Source: Spirosoma radiotolerans (GTDB taxonomy: Bacteria > Bacteroidota > Bacteroidia > Cytophagales > Spirosomataceae). Taken from it: DNA of 64,000 nt. The position numbers were made by a program, and so were the translations under genes. A model generated the notes under the pieces. That model was not told the DNA's origin and ran no database searches. It saw only the letters and a list, made by a program, of their open reading frames with translations. Below are positions 27,404 through 37,082 of this stretch, one piece after another. Within the stretch, counting starts at the first letter, position 1; the number at the start of each line of letters is the position of its first letter. Where the stretch lies: the NCBI RefSeq assembly GCF_000974425.1, contig NZ_CP010429.1:6030501-6094500 (forward strand). The letters are read 5' to 3'.

Positions 27404-27856
27404 ATGAACACTCTTCTCTCCACCCCCCGTGTTTCCCGCCCGGCCCTTGCCAGTCTTCTACACTGGCAGGAGCCACTGGCGACCCGGCTGCGCTTTCGGC
27501 ACGCGTTACCCGGCATGGTAGCCAACCGACTGCTCAATGTGGAGCTGGGACTTTACTTACTGGCCGAACTGGTTCCAATGGCACCGCCCCAGGTTTTGCC
27601 TGATTTATTGACGGGTCACGGCTCTGTTTACCGGAACCGGCCAATCTGGTCGCCCCGGCAGCACCGCGCCTTGAGCCAGGCCCGTATCCTGCTGGCCCCT
27701 TACATGGACCGCACTGCCTGGTACAATGCGCTGGCCAAATACGCCAGTCTGCCCTTGGAATTGCGGACCTACAATTCGCAGGGCACCCTCCGCACCGACG
27801 TGAGTGGATATCTGCTGCGGGAGCGGGTCGGGATGTTTGCGAAGGCTGTGGCGTAG
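27404..27856 (+). CDS. unknown protein, paralog B of the PARP-like module
   Basis: A 150-residue protein, paralog of the one at 25551. Corresponding blocks are NRLLNVELGLYLLAELVPMAPPQVLPDLL, WSPRQHRALSQARILLAPY and LLRERVGMFAKAVA. It has ~20 extra N-terminal residues (RPALASLLHWQEPLATRLRF). It ends with TAG, which shows that TAG is an ordinary stop in this genome. It has its own promoter with the shared palindrome, so it appears to be co-regulated with, but not co-transcribed with, the PARP-like gene. No function is known. Confidence 0.7.
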   Translation: MNTLLSTPRVSRPALASLLHWQEPLATRLRFRHALPGMVANRLLNVELGLYLLAELVPMAPPQVLPDLLTGHGSVYRNRPIWSPRQHRALSQARILLAPYMDRTAWYNALAKYASLPLELRTYNSQGTLRTDVSGYLLRERVGMFAKAVA

Positions 27857-27919
27857 AAGTTGTTCATGACCGGGATAGTTTTTATTCGAATTCACCAATT
27901 CACTTAACCGTATTTGACC

Positions 27920-28270
27920 ATGACATTTCTATCTCTAGAACCCTTTATCCCTTCAGGAACTGATTTTAACAAAGCCAGGCAATTTTTCCAGGCACTCGGG
28001 TTCACAATCAATTGGGATGTGGGTGATTACGTAGGTTTTGAGCGAGATGGATGTAAATTCATTTTACAGAACTACACCAACGCCGAGTTTGCTGAAAACC
28101 TGATGCTGAATGTGCGGATCAGCAACGCCGACGAATTCTGGCAGGAAATAACGGAAAAGCAACTACCCGAAACGTTTGGTATCCGAGTCAGCAAACCAAC
28201 CGACCAACCCTACGGCCGGGAAGTGAATGTAATCGATCTGGCTGGTGTCTGCTGGCATTTTGTGTCGTAG
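27920..28270 (+). CDS. VOC-superfamily (glyoxalase/bleomycin-resistance-like) protein
   Basis: A 116-residue single-domain protein of the vicinal oxygen chelate fold: FIPSGTDFNKARQFFQALGFTINWDVGDYVGFERDGCKFILQ and a second beta-alpha-beta half ending EVNVIDLAGVCWHF. ATG 27920 is used because the TTG at 27914 lies only two codons earlier. Members bind a metal or sequester antibiotics. The usual glyoxalase I metal ligands are not all present, so glyoxalase activity is not claimed. Confidence 0.85.
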   Translation: MTFLSLEPFIPSGTDFNKARQFFQALGFTINWDVGDYVGFERDGCKFILQNYTNAEFAENLMLNVRISNADEFWQEITEKQLPETFGIRVSKPTDQPYGREVNVIDLAGVCWHFVS

Positions 28271-28509
28271 GCCTGTTGGTTTTCTGGTAGCGATTTGAAG
28301 CAGAAACCCCAGCAACGGATAATTGGTCTGACGGCTCCGCGACGTTACGTAATCAGGTGCTTAGTAGTTGACCCGTTCGTTGATCGCCCGCACTTGCGAG
28401 CGGTAAGTTGGGTTTACGTTCAAGATAGGCGACAACCGTATCGAAACCATCGATGAGCAGGGAAGAGGAGAAGTCGTATGGAGTAGGCAAGGGAAATTGG
28501 CAAGCTGTT

Positions 28510-29643
28510 CTATTCGGCTAAAATTGCGTATAATTCCCGATTGATAAAGTAATGATTGCCGCTCACCGTTTTTCGCTCCAACACGCCTAGTTCAACCAAC
28601 TTATTCAGATAGTCACGGGCTGTATTCTCCGCGTACGTTCGATCTTCGGTCAAGTGCCGAATCCGTGTGACCGGTTGAGTAAATATTTTCTGTGCCAGCT
28701 GATCAGGCCGACGAATACCTTTCTGACTGGCCATGATTGCCAATACAGCATCGCGTGCGGCTATGATTCGATTGATTTTTTCGTAGGTCAGATTGGCCGT
28801 CTGCTCTACTGCTCTGAGCATATACAATAACCAGGTCTGCCAGTCTCCCCGTTGCGAAACCCCGGCCAATGCAGAGTAATATTCATCTTTATGATCAACG
28901 ATATAGCGACTTAGATATAAGATTGGATAATCTAATAACCCTTTTTGGGTTAGATAATGGATATTAAAAACACGACCGGTGCGACCATTTCCATCTCTGA
29001 ATGGGTGGATAGCCTCAAACTGAAAGTGCCCAATAGCCATCTTTACTAACGGATCGATTCGGTAAGTCTGATCATCATTCAGGAAGTTTACCAAATTGGA
29101 CAGTTTAGCTTCTAAAACACCCTGTCCTCGTGGTGGCGTATATACAGGCTTACCGGCATTAGGCCCACTCCCACCCTGACGGATATACACTTGTGAGAAG
29201 GCTGGTCGGAATCCTTCACCCGACTGCTTAATCTCCTGAAACGTTTGAATGAAATAATCTAGGGTAAAGCGATTCTGATCCTGCAAGTGGTAATAGCCTT
29301 TCCACAAAGCCTCTCTATAGCGAAGTATTTCTTTGGTAGGTTCAGAAATTTGTTCAACAGTCGTCTCACTGAACGCCCGATACAGTTCATCATCGGTCGT
29401 AAATATATTTTCAATGGCACTGGAATCCTTTGCTTCCTGTAAACTGATGGAGTTAATCAACAGTCCTTGCTTAGGAATTGCCACACTACGTCCCTGCAAA
29501 CGACCCAAAGCCTCTTTAGCCTGCCCTAACTGCTCAAAAACAGCAACCGTCCGATACAAATCAGGATGAATCGGTAAATCGGGTAACGCATTCCAGGGTA
29601 CACTTCGATCTGGATTTATTTGATAAAGCGGTTGGTCAGCCAT
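28510..29643 (-). CDS. Fic-family AMPylase with N-terminal inhibitory helix
   Basis: Transfers AMP, or another phospho-group, to a protein side chain. The catalytic loop is intact: HPFRDGNGRTGR. An inhibitory (S/T)xxxE(G/N) motif occurs in the N-terminal part as SSAIEN, which marks a class II Fic with an intramolecular inhibitory helix. The C-terminal ~90 residues look like a winged helix (AQKIFTQPVTRIRHL, YLNKLVELGVLERK). ATG 29643 is chosen over a GTG three codons earlier. It is the last gene of the minus-strand block behind the methylase, HerA and NurA genes, but a strong inverted repeat separates it from nurA, so it may be transcribed separately. Confidence 0.93.
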   Translation of the reverse strand: MADQPLYQINPDRSVPWNALPDLPIHPDLYRTVAVFEQLGQAKEALGRLQGRSVAIPKQGLLINSISLQEAKDSSAIENIFTTDDELYRAFSETTVEQISEPTKEILRYREALWKGYYHLQDQNRFTLDYFIQTFQEIKQSGEGFRPAFSQVYIRQGGSGPNAGKPVYTPPRGQGVLEAKLSNLVNFLNDDQTYRIDPLVKMAIGHFQFEAIHPFRDGNGRTGRVFNIHYLTQKGLLDYPILYLSRYIVDHKDEYYSALAGVSQRGDWQTWLLYMLRAVEQTANLTYEKINRIIAARDAVLAIMASQKGIRRPDQLAQKIFTQPVTRIRHLTEDRTYAENTARDYLNKLVELGVLERKTVSGNHYFINRELYAILAE

Positions 29644-29654
29644 TAAAATCACCC

Positions 29655-29753
29655 TTTTTTAAGGTTAGCTAGGCAAATGTACCTTAAAAATGACGTCATC
29701 GGTAGTGGCTAACCTTAAAAGTTGACTTTTTTAAGGTTAGCCACTACCGATGA
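29655..29753. promoter_or_regulatory. 25-bp inverted repeat and direct repeats before the Fic gene
   Basis: Arms 29696-29720 and 29729-29753 are perfect 25-bp complements (ends TCATCGGTAGTGG and CCACTACCGATGA) around an 8-nt loop. The word TTTTTTAAGGTTAGC occurs at 29655-29669 and again at 29727-29741. Seen from the minus strand, the stem is a possible nurA terminator, and the repeats are a possible operator for fic. Confidence 0.75.
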
Positions 29754-29772
29754 CATTAAAACTACACGCTTA

Positions 29773-31152
29773 TTAGCGGTGACTTATACCTGCTTTTGCA
29801 ATTAGATCAAGTACTTTACCACCCGGCACAAGGCTTATTGAAGCATGGCGATGGGCTAAAGCAACGGGCACAATCGCATTATCATATAGATCAAGTTCAA
29901 AGTGGCGAATTAGGTCACAGGCCCTCTCAATCAACGATCCGTAATTGCTTAATTCTACTTTAGCTTTCGAGAAAGCTGTTCGTCCTCCTAACCCACTTTT
30001 CACTTCAAATGGATAAGGTAAAGCAAAATTAAAGATGCGCCCTCTTTCTGTCTTAAACAGAAAATCTTGCCCATAATACGACTCATAACCAAAATCCTCA
30101 GTGGCTTTGTCGCTCCCTGTTATGTATTTATGCCGGTACTCATCATCAATCACCCGAATGACTCCCGGTGGAAGAAATTTTTCCAGTAATCGGGCATGAT
30201 CCATAACTATACCTGTTTTTTGTAACCCCATGATTAAAAGGGGATCGAAGCCCAACGACTGAAGCTTTTGGTTAGCCCTATAAATCAGTTTCATAATTCT
30301 TGGCTGCCACTTAGCAGGCTCACCGAAGAGCGCTAAAGGCCCATCCATCACGAAAGCAACCTTACCTAACGATGCAGGATCAGCTTCAATCAATTCTGTG
30401 ATGAAGGCAACCAGCAATAAATGCTCAACGGCATTCATCATACGCGTCATTGCACTTGTATTATTTCCGAAGTCGCTTATCCCCTCATGAAGACGAAGTG
30501 CGTCTGTTGCATAAATAATAGATCCACAAGCTTTACAAGTATGTGTTTGTTGTTGTGGCGTAAATACAAAATCTTCAACCAATGACTCACATGAGTGCGA
30601 TGGACAAGTCTTGATTCTTATTTTACCATCATTGAGTGCAAATAAGGTTTCGGTCAGCACCATTTTATTTGCTTCATCGCGTCGGTTTGCAGTAAGTTGG
30701 TCATATACGGCATGACGAAAGCCATCGCGAACATTAGCTGCTCCTTTGTAGCATACATTGCTCCCTGGCATTACGAAAGTAATTGGTTTCGCATTGCGAT
30801 GCATATCTGCTACTTTGAATGGATCAACGAAACGCGAACCAGGAGCAATTAATTCAGCATATTTATCCATCACAATCAGCACATGACTCACTTTAATAAA
30901 GCCAAGCTGTGTACTAGGCAGTTTATCATTAACAGGGGTATCACTCTTGCTTGCATCGGAAGCAACTACGAACCTTGGCAGTCGTGAAGGATCACCTGAT
31001 GGAGCGGGCATAAATGATGAAGCCATACTCTCTGCTTCCTCATCAGAAGGAGGCTTCAAATACTCACAATTTTGTAAAAAGTTTTGAACATCTGGATTTC
31101 GAACAAAATCAGAATGCCCACCTTTACCGGCCGTTTGATTACTGTAAGGCAT
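29773..31152 (-). CDS. nurA: NurA-like nuclease with zinc-ribbon insertion
   Basis: Predicted 5'-3' nuclease of the NurA family, which forms a ring that works with the HerA ATPase on DNA ends. The two conserved acidic blocks are visible: Asp66 in FVVASDASKS and Asp270 in AFVMDGPLALFG. A zinc-ribbon insertion lies between them, Cys183/Cys188 in CPSHSC and Cys206/Cys209 in CKAC. A conserved tail is PVALAHRHASIS near residue 430. The start ATG overlaps the HerA stop by 1 nt (TAATG), showing tight coupling with herA. The gene is AT-richer than the rest of the window, consistent with recent acquisition. Confidence 0.85.
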   Translation of the reverse strand: MPYSNQTAGKGGHSDFVRNPDVQNFLQNCEYLKPPSDEEAESMASSFMPAPSGDPSRLPRFVVASDASKSDTPVNDKLPSTQLGFIKVSHVLIVMDKYAELIAPGSRFVDPFKVADMHRNAKPITFVMPGSNVCYKGAANVRDGFRHAVYDQLTANRRDEANKMVLTETLFALNDGKIRIKTCPSHSCESLVEDFVFTPQQQTHTCKACGSIIYATDALRLHEGISDFGNNTSAMTRMMNAVEHLLLVAFITELIEADPASLGKVAFVMDGPLALFGEPAKWQPRIMKLIYRANQKLQSLGFDPLLIMGLQKTGIVMDHARLLEKFLPPGVIRVIDDEYRHKYITGSDKATEDFGYESYYGQDFLFKTERGRIFNFALPYPFEVKSGLGGRTAFSKAKVELSNYGSLIERACDLIRHFELDLYDNAIVPVALAHRHASISLVPGGKVLDLIAKAGISHR

Positions 31153-33206
31153 TAGATTTTACCGTTCTGTGAGTTAATTTTTATGATTTCTTCTTTAATC
31201 TCACTCGGTGTAAATCGGTTGATTTGAGTTGGAATCACAAACGGAGCGGATAGCGTTTTTATACGGGCAAAACCTACATCCTGTGCAGATTTTAGTGAAC
31301 GTAGAAAATCACCGAAATCATAAAATTTGCCTAATGACCTTAACTCATCATCGTTATTCAAGTGAGTAACAAACCAATTTTCCGTATTAGCCAAGATGTT
31401 AGGGTGTACAGAGGACGGTTCTTGGGTAGCGTAAACGAAAGCGATTTTTGCCTTTGCCCCTTCTTTCGCAATTCTTGGCCAGGTATCAGTTAGTTTTGCA
31501 TCCCTACCAATCAGGTTGTGTGCCTCCTCGACGTAAATAACAATATTTATCGGCTGTGCTCCACTATTAAGTACGTCAAATTGTCGATTAAAAACGGCTA
31601 CTGCCACTCGTTTAGACAATGTTTCACGTATTGATACAGGACCAGCCGAAAGGTCAAGAATTACAATTTGTCCATCATATAGTAAGCCTAAAATTTCCTG
31701 TACTACGTCACCTTGACGAGAATTTGAGTGATAATCAACATACTCTTGTAGCTGTCGATAACCACGAATATATGTTCCGCCTGAACTCTCATTTACAAGT
31801 ATATTTAGATAGGCTTCTAATGAGCTATCAACCCAACCACGGCCGCTACTTGACGGCAAGGGAGAAGCACGGTTGACTTGTCTAGCTGCTGTAAACCAAA
31901 CTGTAGCCTGATCAAGCGTTAGTTGATAAAACTGTTGATTATTTCCTCGTGATATTGTGGAAGGGAAATCTGCTGGTAGTTGTACCTGAACAAGGTTAAC
32001 GACTTGCTGACTTACGGGAAATTCAACTTTGAAATTTTTGGGAGATGGATAATGCGCGGCATGTAGTACACAGTAAAAAACAGCTCTCCTAACCTGCCAT
32101 CTATTATGTGGACTATGCTCTCTTGGATCCGGTTCATCCAGGGAACTTGTAAGAAATGTTGTAATATCTTGAGCATTACCGCGTGTTTCTCTTGATAATT
32201 GCTCAAGTAGCCCTAGTGCAATATTAGGCTGTTCGTAGAAATTAATTCGTAAATCACGAAAATGTTGTCTATCTGGAGTGTCAATTGCTCTATAACAGAC
32301 TGTATTACTAAACACATCTGCGATTGAGCTGCCATCATCTTGCGAAGTAGCATTTGCATATTCGCCATTAATATCGAAAATAAGCTGTCCTATCTTGATA
32401 CCGTCTGTCAAAGCTGCTAGAGCTACGGCTGATACCGTAGTTTTCACAGTGTTCGATTTCCCTGTACGGGTCATACCAAGTACAGCGGTACGTCTTGCCA
32501 GAAAATCAGAAGGCTGAATCTGTACGTCAACTAAATCTTCAGTTTTCGCGCGATGCATACGGGCGGTAGACGTGTATCGAACTGTACCAATGTTAATAGG
32601 AGACGGAATACTGTTAAAACCAGCTTTACGTGAATCATCCTCAGCCTTTTGCTTTACTTCAGGATTAACATGGTTAACAATTGTCTTGAGGGCATTGCCC
32701 ATAGGCTTGTAAGCACGTAAGCGAGACAATGTCATAAAATTCTCAATATCACTACCTAAACGCAGTTTACCATCTTGCATGTAGAATGTTCCAAGAATAC
32801 GGCATCGCAAACCGCCCGTCTGTAGTTCAGCATGAGTGATTGGGTCCATGCCATCGTTTATATCGCCCGGCAACTTTTCATCAGCAGTGCGTCGCTGGTG
32901 ATGCTCAATACGAGTTCTTACAAAATCCCCATCTTGTGGCAAACTAGCTGGCTCAAGAACTCGTAACAGCAACACTTCTTTGTCTATATTATCGGCATTG
33001 TGAAACTTTTCGGGATTAAAGCCAGCGGCTATCAAAAAAGAATTATGCGGAATGCCATCAACTCCGTGTTTCCATGCATCATTCGTCAGTACTAGTACCT
33101 CATCGAAACGCATCCCATATACGTACCCAACAAAGGTCTTGTTAAAATCACCCAATAATTTTACTAAATCGTTGTCACCAGCAATCTGATTAAGATGGTT
33201 AAGCAT
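31152..33206 (-). CDS. herA: HerA-like DNA translocase ATPase
   Basis: A 684-residue FtsK/HerA-superfamily P-loop ATPase, probably a hexameric ring that pumps DNA into the partner nuclease. The N-terminal ~160 residues fit a HAS barrel. Walker A is GMTRTGKSNT (~244-253) and Walker B is IVIYVEEAHNLIGRD (~554-568), with an expected sensor region AFVYATQEPSSVHPNI and the C-terminal DDELRSLGKFYDF typical of HerA. It begins 28 bp after the methylase stop and its stop overlaps the nurA start by one nucleotide. Gene order dam-herA-nurA is unlike the usual archaeal repair operons and more like restriction or defence modules. Confidence 0.9.
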   Translation of the reverse strand: MLNHLNQIAGDNDLVKLLGDFNKTFVGYVYGMRFDEVLVLTNDAWKHGVDGIPHNSFLIAAGFNPEKFHNADNIDKEVLLLRVLEPASLPQDGDFVRTRIEHHQRRTADEKLPGDINDGMDPITHAELQTGGLRCRILGTFYMQDGKLRLGSDIENFMTLSRLRAYKPMGNALKTIVNHVNPEVKQKAEDDSRKAGFNSIPSPINIGTVRYTSTARMHRAKTEDLVDVQIQPSDFLARRTAVLGMTRTGKSNTVKTTVSAVALAALTDGIKIGQLIFDINGEYANATSQDDGSSIADVFSNTVCYRAIDTPDRQHFRDLRINFYEQPNIALGLLEQLSRETRGNAQDITTFLTSSLDEPDPREHSPHNRWQVRRAVFYCVLHAAHYPSPKNFKVEFPVSQQVVNLVQVQLPADFPSTISRGNNQQFYQLTLDQATVWFTAARQVNRASPLPSSSGRGWVDSSLEAYLNILVNESSGGTYIRGYRQLQEYVDYHSNSRQGDVVQEILGLLYDGQIVILDLSAGPVSIRETLSKRVAVAVFNRQFDVLNSGAQPINIVIYVEEAHNLIGRDAKLTDTWPRIAKEGAKAKIAFVYATQEPSSVHPNILANTENWFVTHLNNDDELRSLGKFYDFGDFLRSLKSAQDVGFARIKTLSAPFVIPTQINRFTPSEIKEEIIKINSQNGKI

Positions 33207-33234
33207 AGGATTGGATAGAATTAAAAATAAAAGA

Positions 33235-34218
33235 TCAAAAGGTTTCGGTTACTAAAAGCCTTTCTGCAATTGGTATTCTGAGAGGGCCATCAACGCCCGT
33301 GAAAGCCGCATCAAGCGGTCCTATTATAGTTAGTCCTACATGTGGTCTTCGTTCATTTTGGACAGGCTGTTGCGGTAAGATATGATTACTAAAAACGAGT
33401 TCTCGTCCTACAAAACTTGCTCCACCTATTGGATGAGTAGAATAGGTCTGGTCCATTACCCGACCATCGATACCATCAAGATTTTCATAGAGCGAGCGTA
33501 CCTCTGGAGCATCATCGTAGGACAACAACCACGGCGAGTCTAATTGTCTTAAAAAATTGCGCATTTTCCGATGCGCCTTTTCATCAAGTAGATGGCCATA
33601 TAATTGTTCAGCTCGGTGGTAGTAAGGTGGATCAAGATAGAGGTATGAATTGTTTATTCTGTTGTAGCGAGTACAGAATTTCCTCCAATCAACACTGTCC
33701 GTTCTTTCAACCTGCATTCGTAAATCATTTAGCTTAAGAATTTTTTCAATTAGTTTGCCTCGGTTAAAACGAACATCAAGAGTTCTGTTCACTTGTCCCC
33801 AGCCACCAATTGGGCCTGCTTTATGAATAATTCCGTTAAAGCTCGTACGATTTAGAAAAAGACATTTCCATGCAGCTTCTCTGACATTATTTGGTTGCAG
33901 GTTTTTCTGACGACGCCATTCTTCTAAGGAGATATCGACTGACTCAATCTGCCGAATGAGCCATTCCAAATCGTCTCTTGACCTACGTCCCTTACCAAAA
34001 ACAATTTTCCAAAAGCTGGACACGAGCGGATCTATATCGTTGATAGCTATCCGTTGAACTTTCTTAGCTTCTAACAGAGCAATTGAAACACCAGCTCCAC
34101 CACAAAATGGCTCAGCAAACACCTCAACGGGGTTTTCTAAAAGAGATAATGCTGATAGAATAAATTTAGTAAAGCGGGTCTTACCCCCTGGATAGCGTAA
34201 TGGTGATGTAGAAGTCAT
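33235..34218 (-). CDS. D12-class DNA adenine methyltransferase (Dam-like)
   Basis: S-adenosylmethionine-dependent N6-adenine methylase, 327 residues. Motif order is that of the alpha class: PLRYPGGKTRF, FAEPFCGGAGVSIALL (SAM binding), then LYLDPPYYHR (catalytic DPPY). The recognition site is not readable from sequence; relatives recognise GATC, which is frequent in this window. It heads the methylase-HerA-NurA operon, the natural place for a self-protecting methylase. A 9-3-9 palindrome lies 41 bp upstream of its start. Base composition is lower in GC than flanking genes. Confidence 0.9.
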   Translation of the reverse strand: MTSTSPLRYPGGKTRFTKFILSALSLLENPVEVFAEPFCGGAGVSIALLEAKKVQRIAINDIDPLVSSFWKIVFGKGRRSRDDLEWLIRQIESVDISLEEWRRQKNLQPNNVREAAWKCLFLNRTSFNGIIHKAGPIGGWGQVNRTLDVRFNRGKLIEKILKLNDLRMQVERTDSVDWRKFCTRYNRINNSYLYLDPPYYHRAEQLYGHLLDEKAHRKMRNFLRQLDSPWLLSYDDAPEVRSLYENLDGIDGRVMDQTYSTHPIGGASFVGRELVFSNHILPQQPVQNERRPHVGLTIIGPLDAAFTGVDGPLRIPIAERLLVTETF

Positions 34219-34258
34219 TAATAAAGGAACAGGAATCTTCAGGTATAAACTTATCAGT

Positions 34259-34279
34259 AGAAGAACACAGTGTTCTTCT
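34259..34279. promoter_or_regulatory. 9-3-9 palindrome upstream of the methylase operon
   Basis: AGAAGAACA, spacer CAG, TGTTCTTCT: a perfect inverted repeat 40 bp before the methylase ATG (34218, minus strand). Upstream on the minus strand, TAAAATTTG preceded by TTG about 17 nt earlier resembles a Bacteroidota promoter. The site is placed like an operator for a repressor or controller protein, but no controller gene is adjacent. Confidence 0.55.
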
Positions 34280-34390
34280 GTTACCTAAAATATTTTCACA
34301 TCATCAAATTTTACTTTTAAAAAGCCTTCACAACCATCTTTATATCACAAATTGTAACGTTGACATGACGGAATTAGCGAAATGACATCT

Positions 34391-34699
34391 TCACTCATAA
34401 ATAGCTGTTTTTGTCCGCTCAAGCATGGCAATGAAGTATGGGTTTTTCAACGACCGCTCCGTAACCAGATCGACCGGACGTTTCAAGACCGTTTCCAGGG
34501 CGTGCGCAATGGTAAAGTAATTGTCTCCATATTGGATGGGATCCAGCGTGTCGTCGAAAGCAATCAATAGATCGATGTCACTAGCGTCGTTGAATTGTTC
34601 TGTACAAACAGAGCCAAATGCATAGGCCCTCTTGACGCCATTTGCGCGCAAAATTTGAGTAACGACGGGCAGTTTATTCGCTAGCGTGGCGTTGATCAT
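34391..34699 (-). CDS. orphan MNT-type nucleotidyltransferase
   Basis: A 102-residue minimal nucleotidyltransferase: AYAFGSVCTEQFNDASDIDLLIAFDD contains the GS-x9-(D/S)D-x-D motif and PVDLVTERSL the third acidic strand. MntA-type proteins act as antitoxins by adding AMP to partner HEPN toxins. No HEPN gene lies next to it: the 172 bp to the methylase gene hold no ORF of that length and the other side is a histidine kinase. So it is an orphan, or its partner is elsewhere. It is on the same strand as the defence genes. Confidence 0.87.
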   Translation of the reverse strand: MINATLANKLPVVTQILRANGVKRAYAFGSVCTEQFNDASDIDLLIAFDDTLDPIQYGDNYFTIAHALETVLKRPVDLVTERSLKNPYFIAMLERTKTAIYE

Positions 34700-34735
34700 G
34701 TCAATGGGTTTTGGCTGTAAGTATAACGAAACTCC

Positions 34736-36103
34736 TCAGAACGTCAGGCTAAACGTGCTGCCCTCGCCGGGTTTGGAGTCGGCGGTGAGCTGGCCGTTGT
34801 GGAGTTGCATGATCTGACGGGAAAGGCTTAGCCCAATGCCTGAGCCGGTCTTCTTGGTCGTGTAGAAGGGAATGAAAATCTGCTCCAGCGCTTCGGGTTC
34901 AATACCAGCGCCGTTGTCGGCAACGCGGATCACGACACGCGGCCCAATGGCTTCAGCGTCGATATGAATGGCTGGGTTCGGTGTTTTACCCAGACTTTCT
35001 ACGGCGTTTTTGATCAGGTTCAGCAGCACCATTTCGATCTGGGCAGCATCGGCCCGAATGGCCAGGTTTGGCGAAGCTACCGAACTAGAAATGTTATGCT
35101 TTTGTGCATCGGAGTGAACGAGATGAACCACATTCCGGATCAACTGTTCAACCGATACGTCGGCAAAAACCGGCTGCGGAATGGTCGTAAAATGCCGGTA
35201 AGCGTCCACAAACTGCATGATACCCGCCCCCCGTTGCTCAATGGTCATAAGGGCGTCACGCAGGTCGTTGACCGATTCAGCCACAACTGCCGGAAACCTG
35301 GCGGCTTCATTAGACTCCTCATCAGACGAAGACAGGGGGAGCAAATCCGTTTCGACAATGTCGCGCATGGTACCCGCCAACGACACAATGGGTGTAATGG
35401 AGTTCATGATCTCGTGCCGCAAGACTTTCGTCAGGTTTTGCCAGGCATCGAGTTCGCGTTGTTGTAGCTCACTGCGAATGTTCTGCATAGACACTACCGT
35501 TACCAGCCGCCCCCGCAGTCGAACGGACGTACAGCGAACCGACAGTTCCCCATCGGCACCGGTCTGGTAAGATACAGGTGTCGACGAGGTCGTAGACGAG
35601 CGGAGTACGTCGGCCAGATCAGCGTGGGTCGCGTTGAGGTCGTTGAGTGTACGAAGCCGGTAAATGCCCAGCAACCGAAGAGCCGTTTGGTTAACCAGCT
35701 CTACCTGCCCGGTCGCATCAAACGTCAGTAGACCAACACTGACGTGCTGCACAATCGTGTTGACATAGTGCAAGTTGGCTTCTTTTTCGGCCCGCGCCTG
35801 CCGGAAAGCGTCGAGCACCTCGTTGAACTGATCGTTCAGTTCATGAAACGATGCCCCCAGGTTACTATCAGCCCGAAAGGCAACGGCAAAGTCGGAGTAA
35901 CGAACCGACTCCAGAAACCGGGTCAATTTCCGGTTCAGGCTAGTCACATACCGATACAGATTGATCGTCAGAAACAGATCAAAAAGAATCAACGGGAAGA
36001 TCAGCAGGCTGTTTACTTCCTGAGTGTGCAGGTAAGTAATCACGCCGGTAAGGCCAACTATACCAGCAATTCGCCAGCCTATACCGAGCGCAAATCGATC
36101 CAT
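34736..36103 (-). CDS. NtrB/NtrY-like sensor histidine kinase
   Basis: ATG 36103 gives MDRFALGIGW and lies one nucleotide after the desaturase stop; the 20-residue extension of the longer frame overlaps that gene. Two membrane segments (~10-25 and ~32-50) are followed by a HAMP-like linker (~55-105), a PAS domain (~110-215, VGLLTFDATGQVELVNQTALRLLG) and HisKA with His230 in VLRHEIMNSITPI. The ATPase domain has LLNLIKNAVESLG, RVADNGAGIEPE and TGSGIGLSLSRQIM. The 'LRHEIMN' box is typical of NtrY/NtrB partners of sigma54 activators. The NtrC-type regulator at 38508 is its probable partner; coupling with the desaturase hints at an envelope signal. Confidence 0.9.
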   Translation of the reverse strand: MDRFALGIGWRIAGIVGLTGVITYLHTQEVNSLLIFPLILFDLFLTINLYRYVTSLNRKLTRFLESVRYSDFAVAFRADSNLGASFHELNDQFNEVLDAFRQARAEKEANLHYVNTIVQHVSVGLLTFDATGQVELVNQTALRLLGIYRLRTLNDLNATHADLADVLRSSTTSSTPVSYQTGADGELSVRCTSVRLRGRLVTVVSMQNIRSELQQRELDAWQNLTKVLRHEIMNSITPIVSLAGTMRDIVETDLLPLSSSDEESNEAARFPAVVAESVNDLRDALMTIEQRGAGIMQFVDAYRHFTTIPQPVFADVSVEQLIRNVVHLVHSDAQKHNISSSVASPNLAIRADAAQIEMVLLNLIKNAVESLGKTPNPAIHIDAEAIGPRVVIRVADNGAGIEPEALEQIFIPFYTTKKTGSGIGLSLSRQIMQLHNGQLTADSKPGEGSTFSLTF

Positions 36104-36104
36104 A

Positions 36105-37082
36105 TTAGCCGGCAATCCAACTAAATGGATATTCAAGCGCAGGCACCTTGGTGCGTTCGGCAATCCGGCGCAGACGGGCAGGTAACGCCATCACATAGTC
36201 GCGGGCGCGTTGACCGGCATCGTTGAGGTCAGTGATCGCATCCACTTTCCAATCGACCAGTAAGGCTTCGGCAATTTCGATATAGTCGTAGGTAGTGTAA
36301 ACGCCCAGCCGCTGAGCCGCATCGGAGAAGTGACTGAATGTCTGGCCGATTTTAACCCCGCTTTCGCGGAGAAAATGAGCTGGCATCACAATCTTTTTGC
36401 GCATCATATCTTCAAAGGCAAGCATCATTTCAGAGGGGTCTACCTCGAAAATCTGCCGGACAAAATCTTTATACGCTTTGGCGTGGCGCATCTCGTCGGA
36501 TGCGATGACTCCGCATATTTTCGACAACTGATTGCAACCGGCCTGCTTGGCCAGCGTAGCCGTGCGACGGTGCGACACATTTGTGGCTAGCTCCTGAAAC
36601 GACGTATAAACGAAGTTACGATAGGGATCTCTACCGGTTCCAATGTCGAAACCATCGGCAATCAGGTACTGCGTAGACACTTCCATCGCCCGCATATTAA
36701 CCCGCCCCGACAGGTACAGAAACTTGTTCAGCAGATCGCCATGGCGGTTCTCTTCGGCGGTCCAGCTACGAATCCAGCGGGTCCATGCTGTTGTGCTACC
36801 CTGCTCAACGCCCTCCATGTCCATCAGCCACGATTCATAAGTCGGCAAGGCTTCTTCTGTAATGGTATCACCTACCAGCACAGCTACGTAGTCGTAGGAG
36901 AGCTCGCGGGTACTTTCGCGGAGTAATTTTACTTCATCCAGAAAGGACTCCTTTGTTGTGTCGGGCAGCAGATCGGCGGGTTGCCAGTTGGTCTCGATAG
37001 GTTTAAGGAATTCATCTATAGACGCGTCGATTTTTTCACCGACGAATCGCATTACATCCAAACGTGTGCCAGATAAGATCAT
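36105..37082 (-). CDS. acyl-ACP desaturase (diiron, FA_desaturase_2 family)
   Basis: Introduces a double bond into acyl-ACP using a carboxylate-bridged diiron centre, O2 and electrons from ferredoxin. The two EXXH-type ligand sets are present: EENRHGD at ~110 and DEMRHA at ~190, with further Glu ligands in LLNKFLYL-preceding and SFQELATNVSHRRT segments. 325 residues is typical for the soluble family. The stop is one nt before the start of the histidine kinase (TAAtATG). A 162-bp gap separates it from the divergent plsC-like gene. The clustering suggests control of membrane fluidity. Confidence 0.92.
   Translation of the reverse strand: MILSGTRLDVMRFVGEKIDASIDEFLKPIETNWQPADLLPDTTKESFLDEVKLLRESTRELSYDYVAVLVGDTITEEALPTYESWLMDMEGVEQGSTTAWTRWIRSWTAEENRHGDLLNKFLYLSGRVNMRAMEVSTQYLIADGFDIGTGRDPYRNFVYTSFQELATNVSHRRTATLAKQAGCNQLSKICGVIASDEMRHAKAYKDFVRQIFEVDPSEMMLAFEDMMRKKIVMPAHFLRESGVKIGQTFSHFSDAAQRLGVYTTYDYIEIAEALLVDWKVDAITDLNDAGQRARDYVMALPARLRRIAERTKVPALEYPFSWIAG

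Follow-up and report, generated by a model that had tools for sequence, protein, structure and literature searches.

The HerA translocase and the NurA nuclease were first known as a DNA end-resection pair, for which a repair function was proposed in archaea and Deinococcus. TdpABC, a phosphorothioation-based system, contains the HerA-type TdpA, the NurA-type TdpB and the phosphorothioation enzyme TdpC, and HerA occurs in several known defence systems. In T. kodakarensis, six HerA surrounding the DNA and two NurA form a complex that cuts both strands; an antiviral role has been proposed for it, and the repair role of HerA-NurA is questioned even in this species (PMC12977600). PD-Lambda-5 is a compact prophage system combining RM and Abi (Vassallo 2022, PMC9519451).

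The locus described here lies in a stretch of 64,000 nucleotides from Spirosoma radiotolerans (the window, meaning the whole stretch analysed), and consists of genes for a DNA methylase, a HerA and a NurA (Table 1), all intact, closely packed and on the minus strand. A preliminary description had placed an adenine methylase, herA and nurA in close order with a 1-nt herA/nurA overlap, exactly as the ORF coordinates have it, with base 31152 common to herA and nurA and 28 nt between the methylase gene and herA. No Rfam family was found in 27800-36200. The palindrome upstream of the methylase start, whose arm length was equalled in 4 of 500 shuffles, is a possible operator; no operator common to the D12 methylases was found upstream of them, and because this palindrome was not seen upstream of the others, it remains a weak part of the description.

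Table 1. Positions of the cassette, its genes and the upstream palindrome in the window.
Feature	Position	Strand	Details
Inserted cassette	29742..34384	-	4,643 bp; gene content limited to the triple; GC 41.6%
nurA, NurA-family nuclease with zinc-ribbon-like insert	29773..31152	-	459 aa; homologues match PF09376; AF2 model matches TdpB
herA, HerA-family DNA-pumping ATPase	31152..33206	-	684 aa; Walker A and B intact; Pfam DUF87, 1.3e-11
D12-class adenine-N6 DNA methylase gene	33235..34218	-	327 aa; DPPY motif; Pfam PF02086, 5.6e-20
Perfect palindrome, 10-bp arms, AGAAGAACAC-T-GTGTTCTTCT	34259..34279	.	upstream of methylase start

The methylase matches the PADLOC family PD-Lambda-5_B (1.4e-66), and its nearest solved chain is 7m6b (1.9e-36, family profile). 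GATC specificity cannot be assigned to it, as the Dam/DpnM loop is not conserved. HerA retains its motifs (Walker A GMTRTGKS, and YVEEAH) and has its best profile match in TdpA (1.3e-28; next best 7.7e-15); TdpA is also the best fold match of its AF2 model (pLDDT 86.8) and accounts for the top six fold matches, at a sequence identity of only about 18%. Sequence searches of Pfam, PADLOC, NCBIfam and PDB gave no direct match for the window NurA. Its identity is nevertheless settled, because 14 of 56 homologues match NurA (PF09376, best 9e-33) and a confident AF2 model (pLDDT 90.3) matches solved NurA structures, with TdpB (8wfd_G, 3.8e-10) as the best Foldseek match, followed by the NurA of Deinococcus, Sulfolobus and Thermococcus. 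Among homologues, NurA D66 is invariant and D270 nearly so.

The triple is probably a horizontally moving, RM-like anti-invader system, in which the methylase marks and HerA-NurA destroys unmarked DNA. The D12 methylase would mark adenines of the host DNA, and a HerA hexamer would pump duplex DNA into a NurA dimer, which would destroy DNA without the methyl mark, following the logic of TdpAB with base methylation replacing backbone phosphorothioation. Methylation activity, its gating of the nuclease and any anti-phage or anti-plasmid effect of the triple are inferred, as is, by homology, a complex of six HerA and two NurA. Degradation could be triggered by an unmethylated tract, by one common unmethylated motif, or by an independent signal such as DNA ends.

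The triple is the insert, because homology to the genus relatives L099 and L103 stops at 29741, and homology to L105, L106 and L112 resumes at 34385-34388, at about the fifth codon of a hepT gene beside mntA. The AT-rich composition noted previously is evident against the 51-52% GC around the cassette (52.1% and 51.0% in the flanks). The two ends of the insert share no repeat, direct or inverted, of at least 8 bases. The insertion interrupted hepT: the mntA-like nucleotidyltransferase antitoxin gene (34391-34699) is intact, but the cassette leaves only about the first five codons of its partner hepT (34385-34398), and L105 and L106 have a full-size hepT. The genes flanking this site (27404-27856 and 34736-36163) are present in 36 of 36 genus genomes. 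In the relatives examined, the DNA between them is variable, about 5-27 kb long, and encodes a type I methylase, Wadjet JetC and JetD, PtuA/PtuB, and IetS-like and Ppl-like proteins, among others. The same hotspot in relative G023 contains, in opposite orientation, another version of the cassette with an SPPF-class methylase, HerA and NurA. This copy is probably inactive, to judge by its reading frames, because a frameshift or stop divides its HerA (L005:11165-13273) between two ORFs.

Other features of the hotspot lie beside the cassette. The gene at 28510-29652 encodes a SoFic-type Fic adenylyltransferase (PADLOC SoFic, 5.6e-102); L099, a relative lacking the triple, also has it, which makes it a separate hotspot gene. 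Fic and MntA were rejected as cassette parts, both lying outside the insert and being present in genus relatives that lack the triple. Between nurA and fic, a perfect inverted repeat of 26 bp around an 8-nt loop (29695-29754) spans the left insert boundary, and the motif TTTTTTAAGGTTAGC is found again upstream of fic, perhaps as a fic operator or terminator. Relatives L099 and L110 contain four-gene sets (L099:4017-10150, L110:7143-13291) that include a large, roughly 1,100-aa ATPase and have a Wadjet-like layout; two proteins of the L099 set (the large ATPase and the product of the last gene) matched no PADLOC model, and a divergent system in the same hotspot is possible.

One stringent scan of species genomes, with an alignment of two HerA sequences as query, found relatives of HerA at 75 loci spread over at least 11 bacterial phyla (23 in Pseudomonadota, 20 in Bacteroidota, 15 in Cyanobacteriota, plus others); some of these come from metagenome bins, which may be assigned to the wrong taxon. 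Distribution is sparse, with NurA in 2 of 36 genus genomes and 13 of 396 genomes of a phylum sample. Seventy loci gave a usable HerA and NurA, counting the window and taking L006 and L081 as a single record; of these, 62 have a DNA methylase within 1.5 kb of the pair, of SPPF/SPPY class in 44 and D12 class in 18. As for the other eight, a large methylase lies further upstream in the operon in three from cyanobacteria (L049, L054, L057), the methylase of L040 is truncated by the contig end, L034 and L035 are doubtful, and L048 and L085 have none nearby. In the three cyanobacterial loci a UvrD-like helicase, a large N6 methylase and an 877-aa protein lie directly upstream of HerA-NurA, a putative larger modification module. 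The arrangement of methylase, HerA and NurA is not due to chance, because it recurs across phyla, and none of 130 control proteins matched a PADLOC methylase. The search for the triple in other genomes proposed in the preliminary description thus finds HerA-NurA with a methylase across phyla and, the window genes being intact, excludes the case that would have refuted it, a triple found in one strain only and with broken genes.

The combination is also carried by mobile elements, including a Vibrio temperate phage, where HerA and NurA lie beside the integrase with a type II methylase on the opposite strand, and a haloarchaeal plasmid (HerA, NurA and methylase). Together with the clean insert in a defence hotspot, this fits the suggested horizontal acquisition of a modification-plus-nuclease defence cassette. 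Phages often encode D12 methylases of this type (311 records), the methylase lies on the opposite strand or downstream in some loci, and rare loci lack it, as would also be expected if the methylase were anti-restriction or mobile-element-protective and merely travelled with HerA-NurA, itself an independent defence reading another signal, such as DNA ends. An association in 62 of 70 loci across deep divergence and with two methylase classes, and the close methylase-herA spacing in the window, make such co-travel unlikely.

Several loci extend into a second known system. PtuA-PtuB directly follow NurA in the same operon in 15 of the 70 loci (L006, which forms one record with L081, L052, L056, L064, L066 and ten others), with a 4-nt overlap in 14, giving a five-gene operon of methylase, HerA, NurA, PtuA and PtuB. 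Twenty of 130 proteins neighbouring the loci are PtuA or PtuB. These neighbours matched 164 PADLOC families, compared with 24 matched by 130 control proteins (E<1e-15), no family being matched by more than one control; the families are redundant, so the ratio is rough, and the controls are mostly from Bacteroidota. HerA-NurA could still be a DNA-end processing (repair) complex to which the adjoining methylase is incidental or regulatory, in keeping with its first description as an end-resection pair and with the annotation of NurA as a break-repair nuclease on some plasmids. This is very improbable for a cassette that is sparse and mobile rather than core, that has defence neighbours, and whose methylase partner is kept across phyla and re-acquired, the more so as the repair role is doubted even in T. 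kodakarensis (PMC12977600).

HerA and NurA behave as one module and the methylase as another. Identities of HerA and NurA correlate (r=0.91), while those of HerA and methylase correlate weakly in the D12 loci (r=0.24); the two proteins of the pair evolve jointly, and the methylase is exchanged. Loci L021 and L022, for example, have HerA 86% and NurA 85% identical, with methylases 32% identical and on opposite sides of the pair. In a quick tree, whose long branches limit detail, the methylase switches class once and changes its position seven times. When 59 methylase-swapped pairs are set against 33 unswapped ones with the same mean HerA identity, the difference stays within 5 points in every 40-residue window of HerA and ranges from -3 to +8 in those of NurA, where the swapped pairs are, if anything, the more similar. 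Thus no HerA-NurA segment tracks the methylase, a result that is only indicative since the pairs are not independent, and that counts, together with the two loci lacking any nearby methylase, against the defence reading given above.

Methylase residues ~121-150 are better conserved than the rest (up to 60% identical in L021/L022), so the exchanged methylases may keep one common target, and G135, G138, G139 and Q142 are invariant across the D12 family. These observations favour conventional site-specific restriction, with HerA-NurA, or its complex with the methylase, cutting one unmethylated motif common to the family's D12 methylases, which would explain why HerA-NurA need not co-vary. That HerA and NurA lack a type II endonuclease and any recognisable target-recognition domain, and that a sister clade is served by an unrelated methylase class, makes this doubtful. 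A further, tentative suggestion is that HerA-NurA is a sequence-independent dsDNA shredder, switched off when any suitable site is methylated; the methylase would hence be exchangeable, even for an unrelated one, and in Bacteroidota the shredder would be wired to Septu as a second line. If true, this principle would be distinct from restriction types I-IV. Natural pairs with HerA-NurA about 85% identical and different methylases make the reading of methylation by the pump-nuclease directly testable.

Defence based on self/non-self modification, as originally proposed, is therefore supported, its functions remaining inferred, because a methylase is found in 62 of 70 loci across phyla, TdpA and TdpB are the nearest kin, the triple is a clean hotspot insert and is carried as phage or plasmid cargo, it extends into PtuA-PtuB among defence neighbours, and it is sparsely distributed with its catalytic motifs kept. 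The triple is widespread, to judge by the 75 loci of a single stringent scan, and was not described as a system in the literature found (subscription papers and preprints were outside the search, and an earlier mention of the operon is not excluded), and neither PADLOC nor NCBIfam names it as one.

Compared with known systems, the cassette meets the methylase criterion of type II restriction-modification (D12 family, DPPY), but not that of a cognate site-specific endonuclease, as no endonuclease profile matched and no segment co-varies with the methylase. Although its methylase belongs to the PD-Lambda-5_B family, only B was matched in PADLOC; the cassette lacks PD-Lambda-5_A, and its nuclease module is HerA-NurA. 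Septu (PtuAB) is joined to 15 of the 70 related loci, but absent from the window locus. With SIR2-HerA (Nezha) and DUF4297-HerA, to which the cassette had earlier been compared, it shares a HerA-type motor and an effector; they are not its nearest kin, since TdpAB is closer by profile and fold, the effector is NurA (no SIR2 or DUF4297 effector gene was matched in Pfam or PADLOC), and a methylase is present. A NurA-fold nuclease adjoining HerA satisfies the definition of a HerA-NurA family pair, and families and fold are those of the archaeal and Deinococcus end-resection complex, but the cassette is accessory, mobile and methylase-linked rather than a core repair pair. The closest resemblance is to TdpABC (PDB 8wet, 8wfd and 8y1k), with which the cassette shares both a TdpA-type motor (by profile and fold) and a TdpB-type nuclease (best fold match 8wfd_G), as well as the logic of a modification enzyme combined with HerA-NurA. 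It differs in having a HerA longer by about 100 residues, a NurA with a zinc-ribbon-like insert, and a DNA base methylase as modification enzyme; nothing but the methylase, HerA and NurA is encoded in the insert, and TdpC is missing. The triple is thus best read as a modification-linked HerA-nuclease defence variant, with a methylase in place of the phosphorothioation enzyme. If true, bacterial HerA-NurA, a pair of doubtful repair function, would gain a role in defence, and modification-gated defence by HerA-NurA would reach beyond the phosphorothioation-based Tdp system to ordinary DNA methylation.
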